A DNA stretch of 36,812 nt. Origin: Deltaproteobacteria bacterium (GTDB lineage Bacteria > Desulfobacterota > Desulfobaccia > Desulfobaccales > 0-14-0-80-60-11). This document shows, in pieces, positions 4,095-11,032 of the stretch; position 1 is the first letter of the stretch; each line of letters begins with the position of its first letter. The notes beneath the pieces were generated by a model that was not told the DNA's origin, ran no database searches, and saw nothing but the letters and a program-made list of their open reading frames with translations. The translations under genes were made by a program, and so were the position numbers. The DNA lies in contig JAKAKP010000160.1 in assembly GCA_021813445.1 (NCBI GenBank), forward strand, positions 7,501 to 44,312. The letters are read 5' to 3'.

Positions 4095-4354
4095 CATGGA
4101 CAATTGTCTATACCAAACAGGCCCAGAAAGACGCCGAGAAACTGGCCGCCGCCGGACTCAAAGGCAAGGCTATTGAGTTATTAGAAATTCTCCGGGAAAA
4201 TCCCTTTCAAACCCCGCCGCCATTTGAAAAGCTGGTGGGCGATTTAGCCGGGGCCTACTCCCGCCGCATCAACATCCAACATCGCCTGGTCTATGAAATC
4301 CTGGAAAAAGAGAAGGTAGTGAAGGTCATCCGCATGTGGACGCATTATGAATAG
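4091..4354 (+). CDS. yoeB: YoeB-family mRNA interferase toxin
   Basis: An 87-aa protein whose natural start is GTG 4091 (reading MTWTIVYTKQAQKDAEKL), overlapping the antitoxin stop as GTGA. The diagnostic YoeB residues are present: FEKLVGDLAGAYSRRINIQHRLVYEI and the terminal RMWTHYE, including the conserved C-terminal H-Y. YoeB cleaves mRNA in the ribosomal A site. This is the last module of the array; the next gene runs the other way. Confidence 0.93.
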   Translation: MTWTIVYTKQAQKDAEKLAAAGLKGKAIELLEILRENPFQTPPPFEKLVGDLAGAYSRRINIQHRLVYEILEKEKVVKVIRMWTHYE

Positions 4355-4378
4355 GCTTTAGTCCATGTTGACTTAAAC

Positions 4379-4954
4379 TTAATTCGAGCAGACTTGCCGG
4401 GCGATCTCTTCGGCCAAGGTCAAAATATCCTGGCGAGTCTCAATGTCTCCCGCCTCCCGGACGCCGCAAGCCCGGATCAGATGGCTTTCCTTAAAGCCAT
4501 ACCATTTCATAAAGTAATCGTACCGGGAAAAGATGTCACTGAATGCCTGCTCGTCGGGGTTTCCCTGGGTCAGCACCATGACCAGCTTCTTCCCCGGGGC
4601 GAGGCGCACCGGACTGGGATTGGTTACATAATCAGGCTTTAAAAAAGAATACATCCTATCGATGCAGGCCTTCAACTGGCTGGAAACGTCCCCGAAATAG
4701 ACTGGCGAAGCCATGACCAAGACATCACTCTCTTGCACGGCCTCCAGGACTTCGGCCAGCTCGTCTTTCAAGGCGCATTTCTCCAGCTTCTTTTTGCAGG
4801 CCATACAAGCCTGGCAGCCGCGATATTTGAGGTCATTCAGGGTGTAAGTTTTTACTTTTGCTCCCAGTTTTTTGGCAGTTGCAACGAAGCGCTTGGCCAG
4901 GGTGGAACTATTGGATTTTTTCCTGGGACTTCCGAGTAAACAGACGATGTTCAT
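4379..4954 (-). CDS. Flavodoxin-fold iron-sulfur flavoprotein (Isf-like)
   Basis: A 191-aa protein of the NADPH-dependent FMN reductase superfamily. The N-terminal GSPRKKSNSSTLAKRF is the FMN phosphate loop, and MASPVYFGDVSSQLKACIDRM is the second flavin-binding segment. Between them CQACMACKKKLEKC gives a C-x2-C-x2-C-x6-C cluster like that of the 4Fe-4S iron-sulfur flavoproteins of anaerobes. It is a probable electron carrier or reductase for oxygen or quinone stress; the substrate cannot be told. The ribosome-binding site GGAGG lies 7 bases before the start. It is transcribed towards the YoeB gene. Confidence 0.85.
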   Translation of the reverse strand: MNIVCLLGSPRKKSNSSTLAKRFVATAKKLGAKVKTYTLNDLKYRGCQACMACKKKLEKCALKDELAEVLEAVQESDVLVMASPVYFGDVSSQLKACIDRMYSFLKPDYVTNPSPVRLAPGKKLVMVLTQGNPDEQAFSDIFSRYDYFMKWYGFKESHLIRACGVREAGDIETRQDILTLAEEIARQVCSN

Positions 4955-5044
4955 GGATTGCCTCCATCCGATAGCAGACCTGATTCAGAGTTATCAATTC
5001 AATATAGCCTTTTGCAGTCCGAAGGTCGAGTATTCCTTGACGAA

Positions 5045-5127
5045 ACCTGGTTACAGCCTGGAAAGCCCGGGCCACCATTAATTTCCCGGCGGTTAGCCAG
5101 CGGTGTTGGCGGACGCGGGCTTTTTTG
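5045..5127. repeat. Decayed palindromic repeat and terminator relic
   Basis: ACAGCCTGGAAAGCCCGGGCCACC resembles the repeat at 2071-2090. After ATTTCCCGGCG it runs into GCGGACGCGGGCTTTTTT, matching the right arm of the terminator at 2191-2220, but the left arm has decayed. The same order of parts as 2063-2220 suggests the two regions share an ancestor. Confidence 0.5.
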
Positions 5128-5194
5128 TTTGGCAAAGCCGGGGAAAGCGGTTATAAGAGGCCTTATTCCCTTGATTTGACCCGGAGGTGAAGAT

Positions 5195-5611
5195 ATGGCT
5201 GAGCCCATTCGGAAAGAAGATTTTGCGGAAAAATATAAGGACGGGGACAAGATCTGGTCGGGACCCTCGTTTTTGGGCTACATGGACGGTTTGAAGGCCC
5301 TATTGGCGGAGCTGCCCATCTCCCCCGCGGCCATCCCCACCAAGCAGTATTATTACAGCTTGCAAGGCAATCTGGATTTTGTCTACGGGGAGATGCTCTA
5401 TTCCCTGAGCGGCACTGAGGGCCTGCTCCGGGACAAGGCTTTCCCCTTGCAGGAGTGCTATATCCGGCCCTTGTTGGAGCCCTCCGTGGCCCTGGAATGC
5501 GGCATCCGTTATAAGACCAAAGAAGGGGAAGAAATCACCCGGACCTGCGAGGTGGTCCGCACCGACGACACCGGTTATATCTTTTTCACCGATTACCACC
5601 GGCCCCTGTAA
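5195..5611 (+). CDS. Conserved-looking hypothetical protein, 138 aa
   Basis: I do not recognise a family. The protein is acidic, soluble, without signal or membrane segment. It has many aromatic residues (KQYYYSLQGNLDFVYGEMLYSL, DTGYIFFTDYHRPL). A strong ribosome-binding site (GGAGGTGA) precedes the ATG, and codon use matches the GC-rich host genes, so it is real. It stands alone between the divergent flavoprotein gene and the DUF192 gene. Confidence 0.75.
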   Translation: MAEPIRKEDFAEKYKDGDKIWSGPSFLGYMDGLKALLAELPISPAAIPTKQYYYSLQGNLDFVYGEMLYSLSGTEGLLRDKAFPLQECYIRPLLEPSVALECGIRYKTKEGEEITRTCEVVRTDDTGYIFFTDYHRPL

Positions 5612-5688
5612 GACGGCGATCTTGGGGGAGGGGGCCAGGGGCTCGCAGCCACCTTCTTCTCCCCCAACCCCTTACTGTCAAGTTGGCG

Positions 5689-6132
5689 ATGAAGTCGCGA
5701 AGAGTCACAACTGCGCTGGCGCTGGCGCTCTTCTGCCTATGGTCCGGGATGGCCCCTGGAGAAGATCTTTCCGCAGACGGCAATCCTTTTCTGCAGGTGA
5801 CTGTGGGCCGGACCCCGGTGAAAGCGGAAACGGTGCAGTCTCCGGGCAAGATCTATCTGGGCCTGGGGTACCGCCAGAGTCTGCCCGAGGGCCGGGGCAT
5901 GCTCTTTTTGATGCCCGGGGTGGGGCCGCAGAATTTCTGTATGCGGGGCATGAAATTTCCCATCGATATCATCTGGATCGTGGGGGGGAAAGTCGTGGGC
6001 CTGGCGAAAAATGTCTCCCCCCAGTTCCCCGGCGCTGTTTGTTCCCCGGAGCCGGTGAATTTTGTCCTGGAAGTGCCCGGGGGATTCTGCGACCGCAACG
6101 GCATCAAGGTGGGCGATCCGGTGAAATGGTAG
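5689..6132 (+). CDS. Secreted DUF192 protein
   Basis: About 147 aa. An N-terminal signal peptide (MKSRRVTTALALALFCLWSG) is followed by the DUF192 domain: VKAETVQSPGKIYLGLGYRQSLPEGRGMLFLM, then FCMRGMKFPIDIIWIVGGKVVG and a C-terminal VLEVPGGFCDRNGIKVGD. DUF192 proteins are small envelope proteins of unresolved role. The ATG at 5689 is preferred over the TTG two codons earlier because it begins directly at a proper signal peptide. No strong ribosome-binding site is seen. Confidence 0.88.
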   Translation: MKSRRVTTALALALFCLWSGMAPGEDLSADGNPFLQVTVGRTPVKAETVQSPGKIYLGLGYRQSLPEGRGMLFLMPGVGPQNFCMRGMKFPIDIIWIVGGKVVGLAKNVSPQFPGAVCSPEPVNFVLEVPGGFCDRNGIKVGDPVKW

Positions 6133-6274
6133 TGAGCAGCAAGCAGTGAGCAGTGACAGAAAGGGACTTGAGAAGACTAGTTTTTGCTGCTTCCGGTCCT
6201 GACCTTCCGCATCGGGCTTTCCCCCAATCCTTGCCAACCTGGCTTTCCTGCTCTATATTGACACGCTAGAGCAT

Positions 6275-6754
6275 ATGGAACCGATATTGACCGCACTGGA
6301 ACAAAGAGTCATTCTGGCGCTGCAGCGGGACCTGGAGGTCATCCCCCGTCCCTTTCTGGAGGTGGCGGAACAGTTGGGGGTGCCGGAAGAAGAGCTCCTG
6401 GCCGCGATCCGCAGCCTCATGGGCAAAGGCGTGATCCGCCGTTTCGGGGCCACCCTGCGCCACCAGCAATCCGGTTTTCCGGCCAACGCCCTGGTGGCCT
6501 GGTCGGTGCCGGCCGGCGATCTGTCGGCCATCGGCAAGGAAATGGCGGGCTACCGGGAGGTCTCCCACTGCTACGCCCGCACCCCGGCGCCTTCCTGGCC
6601 CTATAACCTCTATACCATGATCCACGGCAAGACCCCGGAGGAGTGCGTGCGCACCGCGGCCCGCCTGGCCGCGGAGACCGGGATCGCCGACTACCAGATG
6701 CTGTTCAGCGAAACCGAACTGAAAAAAACCACCATGCGCTATTTTAAAGAGTGA
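6275..6754 (+). CDS. ahbB: Siroheme decarboxylase subunit AhbB (Lrp/AsnC-like)
   Basis: A 159-aa protein with an N-terminal winged helix (LEQRVILALQRDL...VIRRFGATLRHQQSGF) and a C-terminal ligand domain. The residues RRFGATLRHQQSGFPANALVAW and SHCYARTPAPSWPYNLYTMIHG fit the AhbB/NirH group, which with AhbA decarboxylates siroheme to 12,18-didecarboxysiroheme in the alternative haem pathway of sulfate reducers and archaea. It probably does not act as a classical Lrp regulator. hemL starts 3 bases after the stop, placing both in tetrapyrrole synthesis. No ahbA is in the window. Confidence 0.87.
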   Translation: MEPILTALEQRVILALQRDLEVIPRPFLEVAEQLGVPEEELLAAIRSLMGKGVIRRFGATLRHQQSGFPANALVAWSVPAGDLSAIGKEMAGYREVSHCYARTPAPSWPYNLYTMIHGKTPEECVRTAARLAAETGIADYQMLFSETELKKTTMRYFKE

Positions 6755-6757
6755 ACT

Positions 6758-8053
6758 ATGCCTACTTTTGCCAATTCGGAGCGTTTATTTCAAGCCGCGT
6801 CGCAGTTGATGCCAGGGGGGGTCAACAGCCCGGTGCGGGCCTGGGGCGCGGTGGGGCTTTCCCCCCGGCTGATCGCCCGGGGAGAGGGGGCCCGGCTCTA
6901 CGATATGGACGGCAATTCCTATCTTGATTATGTGGGCTCCTGGGGACCGCTGATCCTGGGGCATGCCCATCCCCAGGTAGTGGCGGCGGTGCAGGAGGCC
7001 GCAGCCCGGGGCACCAGTTTCGGGGCCTCCACGCCCGGGGAGGTGGAACTGGCGGAGATGTTGGTGGCAGCAGTGCCGGGTTTGGAGATGGTGCGGCTGG
7101 TGAGTTCCGGCACGGAGGCCTGCATGAGCGCGCTGCGCCTGGCCCGGGGAGCCACCGGCCGCGCCCGGGTGATCAAGTTTGACGGCTGCTACCATGGCCA
7201 TGCCGATTCCTTTTTGGTGGCCGCGGGCAGTGGCGTGTTGACGCACGCCATCCCCGGCAGTCCCGGGGTGCCGGGGGAGATTGCCGATCTGACCATGTCC
7301 CTGCCATACAACGATCTGGACGCGGTGGCCCGGGCCTTAAAACAGCACCCGGGGGAAGTGGCGGCCATCTTTGTGGAGCCGGTGGTGGGAAATATGGGGG
7401 TGGTGCCGCCCCAGGCCGGATTTCTGGAGGGGCTGCGGCGGCTGTGTGACCAGGAGGGCTGCCTTCTGGTCTTCGATGAGGTGATCACCGGTTTCAGGGT
7501 AGCCTGGGGCGGGGCCCAGGAGCTTTACGGCATTAAGCCGGACCTGACCTGTCTGGGGAAGATCATAGGCGGCGGCTTGCCGGTGGGCGCCTATGGAGGC
7601 CGCCGGGATCTGATGGCCCAGATGGCCCCGGTGGGGCCCATTTACCAGGCCGGGACCCTCTCGGGCAATCCGGTGGCGGTGGCCGCGGGCCTGGCCACCC
7701 TGAAGGCCCTGCAGCAGCCGGGGACCTACGAGTCTCTGGAAGCAAAGGGGGCCTGGCTGGCCCGGGAATTGGCCGCGGCTGCGGCCCGGCAAGGGGTGCC
7801 GGTGACGCTTAACCGGGTGGGGTCCATGCTTACGGTTTTTTGTACCCCGGGACCGGTCACCGGCCTGACTGCCGCCAAGCAGGCTGACTTAGGCCAGTTT
7901 CAGCGCTTTTTCCAGGGTATGCTGGCAGCCGGGGTCTATCTGCCTTGCTCCCAGTTCGAGGCCTGGTTCGTGTCCACGGCCCATAGCCAGAAGGACCTGG
8001 AAGACACGGTGGCCGCGGGGGAGCGGGTATGGGCCGGCTGGGCCGCCGGCTGA
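6758..8053 (+). CDS. hemL: Glutamate-1-semialdehyde 2,1-aminomutase
   Basis: A 431-aa PLP enzyme, the normal length, making 5-aminolevulinate from glutamate-1-semialdehyde, the first committed tetrapyrrole step in the C5 pathway. Recognisable are PGGVNSPVRAWGAVG near the N-terminus, SSGTEACMSALRLARG, FDGCYHGHAD, VFDEVITGFRV and the PLP lysine in CLGKIIGGGLPVGAYGG (K268). It follows ahbB by 3 bases as a two-gene operon feeding haem and siroheme synthesis. Confidence 0.97.
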   Translation: MPTFANSERLFQAASQLMPGGVNSPVRAWGAVGLSPRLIARGEGARLYDMDGNSYLDYVGSWGPLILGHAHPQVVAAVQEAAARGTSFGASTPGEVELAEMLVAAVPGLEMVRLVSSGTEACMSALRLARGATGRARVIKFDGCYHGHADSFLVAAGSGVLTHAIPGSPGVPGEIADLTMSLPYNDLDAVARALKQHPGEVAAIFVEPVVGNMGVVPPQAGFLEGLRRLCDQEGCLLVFDEVITGFRVAWGGAQELYGIKPDLTCLGKIIGGGLPVGAYGGRRDLMAQMAPVGPIYQAGTLSGNPVAVAAGLATLKALQQPGTYESLEAKGAWLARELAAAAARQGVPVTLNRVGSMLTVFCTPGPVTGLTAAKQADLGQFQRFFQGMLAAGVYLPCSQFEAWFVSTAHSQKDLEDTVAAGERVWAGWAAG

Positions 8054-8380: not shown

Positions 8381-9670
8381 ATGGCAGATCAAGTACCAGG
8401 AAAGGCGTGGGTCGTTACATTTTGCGGCACGGCTGTTAACCTTTGTTTGGGAATCTTATACGCCTGGAGCGTTTGGTCCGGGAAGCTGATCGATGTGAAA
8501 AAGGCGGGGCAGCTCATCACCGAGGGTCCCGCGGTCGGGTGGACTTACCTGACTAATGCGGAAGCGGCCACGCCGTTTTCCTTGTGTGTCATTATCTTTG
8601 CTTTATTGATGATTCCCGGCGGCCGGATCCAGGATAAGGCGGGCCCCAAGGTTGGCGCTATTACCGGCGGCCTCTTCCTGGCGGTGGGCTGCATCATCGC
8701 CGGCCTCATGAAAAGCTATGCCGGCCTGATCGTCGGTTTTGGTATCTTTGGCGGCATTGGCATGGGCATCGGTTATGCTGCGCCTACGCCGGCGGCCTTG
8801 AGCTGGTTCGGTCCTCATAAGCGGGGTCTGGTAGCCGGTCTGGTGGTGGGCGGCTACGGCGGCGCTGCTTTGTACATCGGTCCTCTGGCTTCCTATCTGA
8901 TCGCCACCGGCGGTGTCACTTACAGCTGGATCTTCCTGGGCATCTTTTTCGCGGCGGTGGTCATTATCGCCGGTTCCCAGCTAGCCAAGGCGCCTGCGGG
9001 CTATGTAGCCCCCGCACCCCCGGTTAAAGCCGGCGGCGCGCCCGCCAAAGCCGCTGGCACCCTGGTGGATTGGGCCCCCAGTGAAATCGTGAAGACCTGG
9101 CAATGCTATGCCTTGATTCTGATGTTCATCGGCACCACCCAGTCCGGCCTGCTGATTATCGGCAACGCGGCCGGCATCCTGGCCACCGCGGCCAAAGGTA
9201 TCCCCTTCCTGGTGGCCAACGCCTGGATCCTGGTATCTTACGGCGGTTTGGTTAATGCCGTGGGCCGGGTCGGCACCGGCCTTTACTCCGACAAAATCGG
9301 CCGGGACAATGCCTACACCCTGAACTGCCTGGTTTCGGCCCTTTGTCTGTTCGTGCTGCCGAGTATCATTGCCAGCCACAACATCTTTCTGCTGTTCGTG
9401 GCGGTGGGTATCGCTTACTGGCAGTACGGCGGCGGCCTGTCCCTGATGCCCGCTTACACTGCCGACTTCTTTGGCCCCAAGAACCTGGGCATGAACTACG
9501 GCATCGTGTTCCTCGGGTGGGGTCTGGGCTTCTTCATGACCCGTTTGGGCGGCACCATTAAAGACATCACCGGTTCTCTGACCTGGGCCTTTATCCTGTC
9601 GGCCATCGTCTTGATCGTGGCGGTGGTTATCTCCCGGCTCACCAAGAGACCGATGCATGCCACGGAGTAG
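8381..9670 (+). CDS. OFA-family MFS transporter
   Basis: A 429-aa, 12-helix membrane protein of the oxalate/formate antiporter family in the major facilitator superfamily. The opening GKAWVVTFCGTAVNLCLGILYAWSVW, the IPGGRIQDKAGPK loop and GIGMGIGYAAPTPAALSWFGPHKRGLVAG are typical. The second half has AVGRVGTGLYSDKIGRDNAY and ADFFGPKNLGMNYG. OFA members carry small carboxylates such as oxalate, formate, lactate or pyruvate; the substrate here is unknown. The ATG has a strong ribosome-binding site (GGAGGG). It is monocistronic by appearance, with a sigma-54 promoter upstream and a hairpin downstream. Confidence 0.92.
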   Translation: MADQVPGKAWVVTFCGTAVNLCLGILYAWSVWSGKLIDVKKAGQLITEGPAVGWTYLTNAEAATPFSLCVIIFALLMIPGGRIQDKAGPKVGAITGGLFLAVGCIIAGLMKSYAGLIVGFGIFGGIGMGIGYAAPTPAALSWFGPHKRGLVAGLVVGGYGGAALYIGPLASYLIATGGVTYSWIFLGIFFAAVVIIAGSQLAKAPAGYVAPAPPVKAGGAPAKAAGTLVDWAPSEIVKTWQCYALILMFIGTTQSGLLIIGNAAGILATAAKGIPFLVANAWILVSYGGLVNAVGRVGTGLYSDKIGRDNAYTLNCLVSALCLFVLPSIIASHNIFLLFVAVGIAYWQYGGGLSLMPAYTADFFGPKNLGMNYGIVFLGWGLGFFMTRLGGTIKDITGSLTWAFILSAIVLIVAVVISRLTKRPMHATE

Positions 9671-9737: not shown

Positions 9738-9769
9738 GAGAAGGCAGGGTGAAGTTCCCCTGCCTTCTC
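9738..9769 (+). terminator. Hairpin after the OFA transporter
   Basis: GAGAAGGCAGGG pairs perfectly with CCCTGCCTTCTC over an 8-base loop. It is followed by TATGTTC, not a clear T-tract, so it may act as a weak terminator or as an mRNA-stabilising 3' end. Confidence 0.6.
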
Positions 9770-9930: not shown

Positions 9931-10581
9931 ATGTCTAACAGCGATTGGCCTGTTCCTTTCCTGCTTTCCTCCCAGACCTTGCAGATCGATGCGGTGGTAA
10001 CCTTTTGTGTGGCCATTCTCGTGACCACCATGATTAATGCGGAGGCCCAGGCCTTTGCCGCCACTTTTCTGGGCGATTACCGGCAGGATACCAAGGACCG
10101 TTTTAATTTTAATGTCTTCCTGCACCTGGATATCTTGGGAATCATCTGTTACCTGGCGGGAGGGTTCGGCTGGCCCCGCATGGTGGACGTCGACACCAAG
10201 AGATTTAAGCACCCCCGGGCTTACTTGGTCATCACCCGCTGCGTCGGTCCCCTGGCCAACCTGCTGCTGGCCGGCATCGCCGGCAGTCTGGTGATGATCA
10301 TGAGAAAGTTCGAGTACGATCCCAGAGTCTTTTTATTGATAGTTGGCGTTAATATCACCACCGCGGTGTACAATTTGCTTCCCATTCCGCCATTGGCCGG
10401 GGGCGTGTTGGTCTCCTCTCTGCTGCCGCAAGGGATGGATCGGGTCAGGCGGTGGTTCAACCTGATAGCGCCCTATCTGCTGGTGGCCTTTTTATTAGAG
10501 GAAAGAATGCGGGGGAAAATTCCCTTGAGAGGCTTCCTGGATCCGGTGATCATCGCCATCTACCAATATATTATCAAATGA
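9931..10581 (+). CDS. Site-2-protease-like (M50) membrane protein, metal ligands missing
   Basis: A 216-aa protein with five or six membrane segments and the layout of M50 proteases. Where M50 has HExxHA it reads NAEAQAFAATFLGD, and where M50 has NLLPIPPLDGG it reads NLLPIPPLAGG. So both zinc histidines, the catalytic glutamate position and the third ligand Asp are lost, while the surrounding scaffold is kept. It is probably a non-proteolytic relative. The proximity to the OFA transporter gene (same strand, 260 bases apart after a hairpin) may be coincidental. Confidence 0.75.
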   Translation: MSNSDWPVPFLLSSQTLQIDAVVTFCVAILVTTMINAEAQAFAATFLGDYRQDTKDRFNFNVFLHLDILGIICYLAGGFGWPRMVDVDTKRFKHPRAYLVITRCVGPLANLLLAGIAGSLVMIMRKFEYDPRVFLLIVGVNITTAVYNLLPIPPLAGGVLVSSLLPQGMDRVRRWFNLIAPYLLVAFLLEERMRGKIPLRGFLDPVIIAIYQYIIK

Positions 10582-11032
10582 GCGGGGGGCTCCTCCTGCG
10601 TCCCAGCCAGGCAGGCCGAGCCCCTTGGTATTCCCTTAAAGGTTGCCGGTGAGGAAAGTGGGGCTGGAAAGCGCCGGCGATGATTGCCTTTTTTAACCTC
10701 CGCACCAATCCCTGATTAAAACAGGCGTATCCGGAAATCTATCCTAACCAATGACCTTCCGGAGCGTGGCGCACCTGGGGAGGTCGTGGACCTCAAGACC
10801 TGGCTATCTTCCACAAACTGTTGCCTTCAGGTCCTGCGGGGAAGCCGGGAACGGAATTGGACGGCGTGCAGCTTTCAAATCGCAGGTAAAAAAATAAAAT
10901 TAATGGCATTAGGGTTCGGTGCATATTTAATAATTTTAAAAAAAGATTAAAGAAGAAAGACCGTTATTCCGCTATATTATATGACGAGGTATATTTCTGA
11001 TCGAAAGTCAAGGCCCAAGGTTTCCAAAAGCT
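10582..11032. other. Intergenic region, no gene seen
   Basis: In this 451-base gap I find no credible ORF, RNA gene or terminator. It shifts to A/T-rich sequence after about 10885, including a run of A near 10937 and a TATATTAT stretch near 10974 that could serve as a -10 element for rmlC. No clear -35 is seen. Confidence 0.5.

Follow-up and report, generated by a model that had tools for sequence, protein, structure and literature searches.

A conserved bacterial M50 pseudoprotease encoded beside an SfMCT-like transporter

Is a site-2 protease (S2P)-like protein that has lost its metal site a gene in decay, or a protein kept for a use other than cutting? Retired intramembrane proteases are well known among rhomboids. 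We addressed this question for the M50 class with a 36,812-nucleotide stretch of contig JAKAKP010000160.1 from a member of the Desulfobaccales (referred to here as the window, with position 1 as its first letter), in which one open reading frame had been predicted to keep the M50 scaffold with every metal ligand gone.

An M50 scaffold without its metal site

The gene for this M50-fold pseudoprotease (PP; 9931..10581, plus strand) starts with ATG and encodes 216 amino acids. Alignment with HExxH relatives placed NAEAQ (codons 36-40; 10036..10050, plus strand) at the position of HExxH and LAG (codons 155-157; 10393..10401, plus strand) at the position of LDG, just as the original prediction had read these motifs, and all four catalytic or metal-binding residues of short M50 proteases are replaced in the window PP. 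Neighboring landmarks of M50 proteins are nevertheless retained (GD 48-49, R57, H65, GW 80-81, GP..N 106-110, N141, and P154). A search with the Pfam M50 profile (PF02163) gave 25.7 bits for the window PP (E value = 8.6e-6), slightly below the curated cut-off of 27.2, and 29.0 bits for the family member L106, above that cut-off; 20 of 45 family members matched the profile at an E value of ≤0.01. With the window PP as the query, NCBIfam yielded nothing above any cut-off. A resemblance to MtrE (Pfam E value = 0.026, NCBIfam E value = 0.0068; 1 of 45 family members) scored far below the cut-offs and was rejected as noise from membrane composition.

We then compared the predicted fold of PP with solved structures. 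The AlphaFold2 model, built on 45 family sequences, had a pLDDT of 90.4 and a pTM of 0.87. In VIA-align, S2P entries occupied ranks 1 to 7 (Z from 11.3 down to 7.7), led by RseP (Z 11.3, 3.4 A, 160 aligned) and MjS2P (Z 11.1), and the next, non-S2P entry reached 5.9; Z scores near such levels can be common among helical bundles, and we relied on the clean separation of the S2P entries. A control model of HExxH relatives gave Z scores of 12.0 to 8.1 with S2P structures and then 6.2, and because this control scores similarly, PP retains the predicted S2P scaffold to the same degree as relatives whose motif is intact. The first four PDB matches of the PP model in Foldseek were MjS2P and SpoIVFB chains (probability 0.97-1.00), with modest E values (best 2.1e-2) and TM scores of 0.44-0.48 by query length. 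A sequence-profile search of the PDB with PP found nothing significant, the best match being RseP (E value = 0.11). The model, the S2P ranks, and the HExxH control together led us to reject a fold unrelated to M50, and the proposal that the scaffold is kept was borne out. Since the metal ligands and the general base are gone, PP would be unable to cleave peptides; these losses, taken with the established chemistry of S2Ps, mean that it does not act as a zinc protease.

A clade with fixed losses under purifying selection

A profile scan of the GTDB collection with the family alignment found 61 relatives, 47 of them in the PP family (L106-L152); the same scan with a single PP protein as the query found no relative. 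Aligned with the window PP and three sequences from further genomes, these 47 loci gave 51 rows, some of them near-identical. The catalytic Glu is Ala and the second His is Gln in 51/51 rows, and the Asp that is the third metal ligand is Ala, Pro, or Thr in all 49 rows that reach the LDG position. Because the same losses are fixed throughout, they are not due to chance. The first His is replaced by Asn, Ser, Thr, or Gln in 43 rows and is still His in 8/51, so the description of every metal ligand as gone holds for the window PP but not for the whole family. HExxH did not occur anywhere in the protein across 77 family rows, some of which are one contig fetched twice, and a shift of the motif to another place, which would have spoken against the original prediction, was therefore rejected.

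Within the former motif, A37, E38, and Q40 are invariant (51/51), as is Ser119 outside it (51/51), and Arg192 is present in 48/49 rows; Glu38, Ser119, and Arg192 each occur in <20% of 26 HExxH rows, where the position of Glu38, the third motif residue, is mostly Tyr, Phe, or Val. Asn148, by contrast, is fixed in the 26 HExxH rows but present in only 22/49 PP rows. The invariant Glu38 and Gln40 may mark a site that has been reused. A WPVP-like N-terminal segment also sets PP apart from the HExxH M50 proteases.

A clear PP orthologue is present in 26 of 29 genomes of the window's order, with a contig-end fragment in one more (G015), and PP was not found in the remaining two (G014 and G019). Across a sample of the phylum, 20/345 genomes carry PP, at scores of at least 240 bits, compared with at most 115 bits for other M50 proteins; among the ten next-best loci (L096-L105), nine have HExxH and LDG, and L099 has neither. 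Records of family members are labeled Desulfobacca, Desulfosoma, Desulfobulbaceae, Desulfocapsaceae, and Desulfobacteraceae, among others. In a maximum-likelihood tree of 75 rows, a single branch (support, 100/99) separated the 49 family rows from the 26 HExxH relatives; L099 sat on a very long branch with an unsure placement. All 15 close PP pairs had dN/dS values of 0.12-0.33, which indicates purifying selection. Separately, L175 (4473-5111) encodes an M50-like protein of highly divergent sequence, in which both HExxH and AExQ are missing and LAS takes the place of LDG; its gene is convergent with an SfMCT-like transporter gene (5427-6722), and the protein may represent a second, older branch.

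The transporter next to the pseudoprotease gene

Directly upstream of PP in the window lies a gene for a transporter of the major facilitator superfamily (MFS; 8381..9670, plus strand) that is SfMCT/SLC16-like and is a conserved neighbor. It matched the NCBIfam model for SfMCT, an L-lactate transporter (NF049980), with 347.3 bits (cut-off, 320) and the SfMCT structure (PDB 6g9x) with an E value of 5.5e-41. The ligand residues described for SfMCT include Y119, N276, R280, Y331, L145, and F335 (PMC6573034). Counted over ungapped rows, at positions mapped by hand on the 6g9x alignment, four of them are kept in the transporter family (Y119 in 42/42, N276 in 41/43, R280 in 43/43, and Y331 in 43/44), and the window transporter differs from SfMCT at the other two (L145 to Tyr and F335 to Leu). 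An acetate-CoA ligase adjoins the transporter in many relatives, which suggests that it carries acetate or another short monocarboxylate, and the sulfate reducer Desulfobacca acetoxidans degrades acetate (PMC3156406). For SfMCT itself, however, only linear monocarboxylates that were unsubstituted and had at least 3 carbons are described as competing (PMC6573034), which does not favor acetate. In L168 (14850-16085) and L169 (14702-15937), a second SfMCT-like transporter, with 51-52% identity to that of the window, lies about 5-6 kb downstream of the transporter-PP pair.

The transporter gene directly precedes PP on the same strand in 21/21 loci of the order that were examined, with gaps of 75-306 bp (measured from the longest-ORF start), and lies upstream of PP in 40/47 loci of the GTDB collection, which span several orders. 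The acetate-CoA ligase, named by NCBIfam in L128 and confirmed by its domains, stands between the two genes in 14 of these 40. Genes outside the transporter-PP pair vary from group to group. The window has a siroheme decarboxylase beta subunit gene (ahbB, NCBIfam NF040707 above the cut-off) directly followed by hemL (6275-8053), a pair found upstream of the transporter in many, though not all, loci of the order, and two ORFs upstream of ahbB (5195-5611 and 5622-6149) have no Pfam match; relatives of the first recur at the same place in some loci. In L150 (6937-8823), an acetyl-CoA hydrolase/transferase is fused to a GNAT acetyltransferase domain, and such a fusion adjoins PP on the opposite strand in several loci.

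The seven PP loci without a nearby transporter all keep the first His. Six have PP after an electron transfer flavoprotein (ETF):quinone oxidoreductase (named in L141), and the seventh (L143) is cut by the contig end; this etfA-ETF:quinone oxidoreductase setting, the third besides the transporter alone and the transporter with ligase, is confined to one clade. In L141, L142, L147, and L151 (about 4200-6630), the PP that retains the first His lies 45-138 bp after the oxidoreductase gene, and the gap has no hairpin. One genome of this type (G312) has the transporter elsewhere, beside genes judged by eye to be TetR-like and acetate-CoA-ligase-like.

Next, we looked at how PP and the transporter co-occurred across the phylum sample, counting a close transporter at scores of at least 430 bits, plus G012, where the match is split across two contigs. 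A close transporter was present in 20/20 PP genomes and in 14/325 others (Fisher's P = 1e-23 when genomes are counted and 6e-6 when families are, the latter with counts made by hand; neither value is corrected for descent, with which the co-occurrence is confounded). G014 and G019 lack both PP and the transporter. Among the 14 transporter-only genomes, G159, from another family, has the divergent L099 tail-to-tail with a transporter of the same kind; in the remaining 13, the surroundings of the transporter gene contain no ORF resembling PP. Because these 13 of the 345 genomes have the transporter without an adjoining PP, PP is not needed for the transporter everywhere, and we rejected the idea that the transporter requires it.

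We also scanned the gaps for hairpins. In the window, a terminator-like hairpin conserved in relatives lies between the transporter and PP (9738..9769), and a second, with a T-run, follows PP (10676..10688, plus strand); under a stricter scan, the hairpin at 9738..9769 is terminator-like on the minus strand only. A hairpin with a T-rich tail was found in 36/38 gaps before PP (23/25 transporter-PP gaps and 13/13 ligase-PP gaps), compared with 3-4% of mononucleotide shuffles of the same gaps, and in 0/6 gaps between the ETF:quinone oxidoreductase and PP. Since a hairpin separates them, the transporter and PP may not share a transcript; a plain operon is weakened accordingly, and PP could be expressed either from a promoter of its own or by read-through.

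A probably noncatalytic membrane protein and its possible partners

These results indicate that PP is almost certainly a genuine bacterial M50 pseudoprotease, because the M50 fold is combined with total loss of the metal site and with fixation across orders. The interpretation first put forward for this gene stands to that extent; the chaperone role it hinted at, by comparison with iRhoms, is conjectural. PP shows homology to an enzyme family, loss of the catalytic motif, and retention under selection, which are the marks of a pseudoenzyme. An ancient relative of a short S2P would have lost its zinc site and catalytic Glu in an ancestor within the Thermodesulfobacteriota and would have been retained afterwards as a noncatalytic membrane protein. 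The nearly constant transporter neighbor suggests that a former protease now serves as a helper protein, and we give slightly less than an even chance to a role as a noncatalytic membrane partner, probably of the transporter. This partnership rests on the gene linkage, the co-occurrence, and a membrane-embedded Glu where relatives mostly have Tyr, Phe, or Val. With less certainty, PP may bind the neighboring transporter in the membrane and aid its folding, stability, or activity; Glu38, which by helix geometry would face away from the old pocket, would then belong to a new contact. A more specific form of this reading, tentative and with a modest chance of being right, makes PP a bacterial counterpart of basigin in its pairing with monocarboxylate transporters (MCTs), in which the S2P fold, having given up catalysis, would serve an SLC16-type transporter of sulfate reducers and their relatives as its dedicated ancillary subunit, with a contact or ligand site rebuilt around Glu38, Gln40, Ser119, and Arg192.

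The simplest alternative, a decaying gene without function, would account for the loss of all catalytic residues and the subthreshold Pfam score in the window, but the open frames, the fixed substitutions, the dN/dS values of 0.12-0.33, and the single clade with orthologues across the order and in several orders refute it, both as a local event and for the family, and leave it next to no chance. It is unlikely that PP is instead a noncatalytic decoy or regulator of the cell's active S2Ps, one that would hold, protect, or present membrane segments as iRhoms do and for which the transporter neighborhood would be a regulatory convenience. The same genome does have HExxH M50 proteins on several contigs, hairpins part PP from its neighbor, and one clade has a different neighbor, but such a role leaves unexplained why one particular transporter occurs in all 20 PP genomes and stays adjacent while other neighbors change.

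The three neighbor settings, together with the mostly short, hairpin-free gaps after the ETF:quinone oxidoreductase, would fit a membrane partner of wider carboxylate or acyl-CoA oxidation, for example, a scaffold or a quinone- or lipid-binding protein, in place of a transporter subunit; we consider this improbable, given that the oxidoreductase setting is limited to one clade and that the transporter is found at 40/47 loci. Quite improbable is an old pocket rebuilt for other chemistry or ligand binding through Glu38, Gln40, Ser119, and Arg192: all or nearly all family members share these polar residues, which few or none of the HExxH relatives have, yet Glu38, judging from its spacing, probably sits on the side of the helix that points away from the pocket, and no known catalytic motif was recognized.

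Among known systems, the nearest sequence relatives of PP are the short bacterial M50 proteases with HExxH and LDG (PF02163), with which it has the fold and landmarks in common and from which it differs in forming a separate clade with a WPVP-like N terminus, invariant E38, Q40, and S119, and near-invariant R192. The closest described case, and the nearest M50 precedent in place of the iRhoms to which PP had been likened, is EGY3, a plant chloroplast S2P homologue that lacks the zinc-binding motif, is highly conserved in its lineage, and is described as stabilizing CAO and CSD2 (PMC10978774, PMC9355673). EGY3 is restricted to plant chloroplasts and associated with heat and light stress, whereas PP is bacterial, short, and transporter linked. 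A 2022 paper calls EGY3 the only S2P pseudoprotease (PMC9355673), and our search of the literature, within the portions of text it covered, recognized no bacterial S2P or M50 pseudoprotease; a description outside that literature is possible. The iRhoms likewise retain an intramembrane protease fold without catalysis (PMC3149277) but are eukaryotic and belong to another fold and another protease class. On the side of the transporter, mammalian MCT1-4 are described as needing ancillary proteins for trafficking, apparently not for transport itself; basigin and embigin resemble PP in being a second membrane protein beside an SLC16-type transporter, and the available text of the same paper mentions no bacterial partner protein of SfMCT (PMC6573034). 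Both basigin and embigin, however, are members of the immunoglobulin superfamily, and the link of PP with its transporter is one between genes. Fixed across orders and tied to a transporter whose structural type is known, the PP family would be a simple model in which to ask what role an S2P fold has once it no longer cuts and if monocarboxylate transporters of bacteria, like some human ones, have partners.
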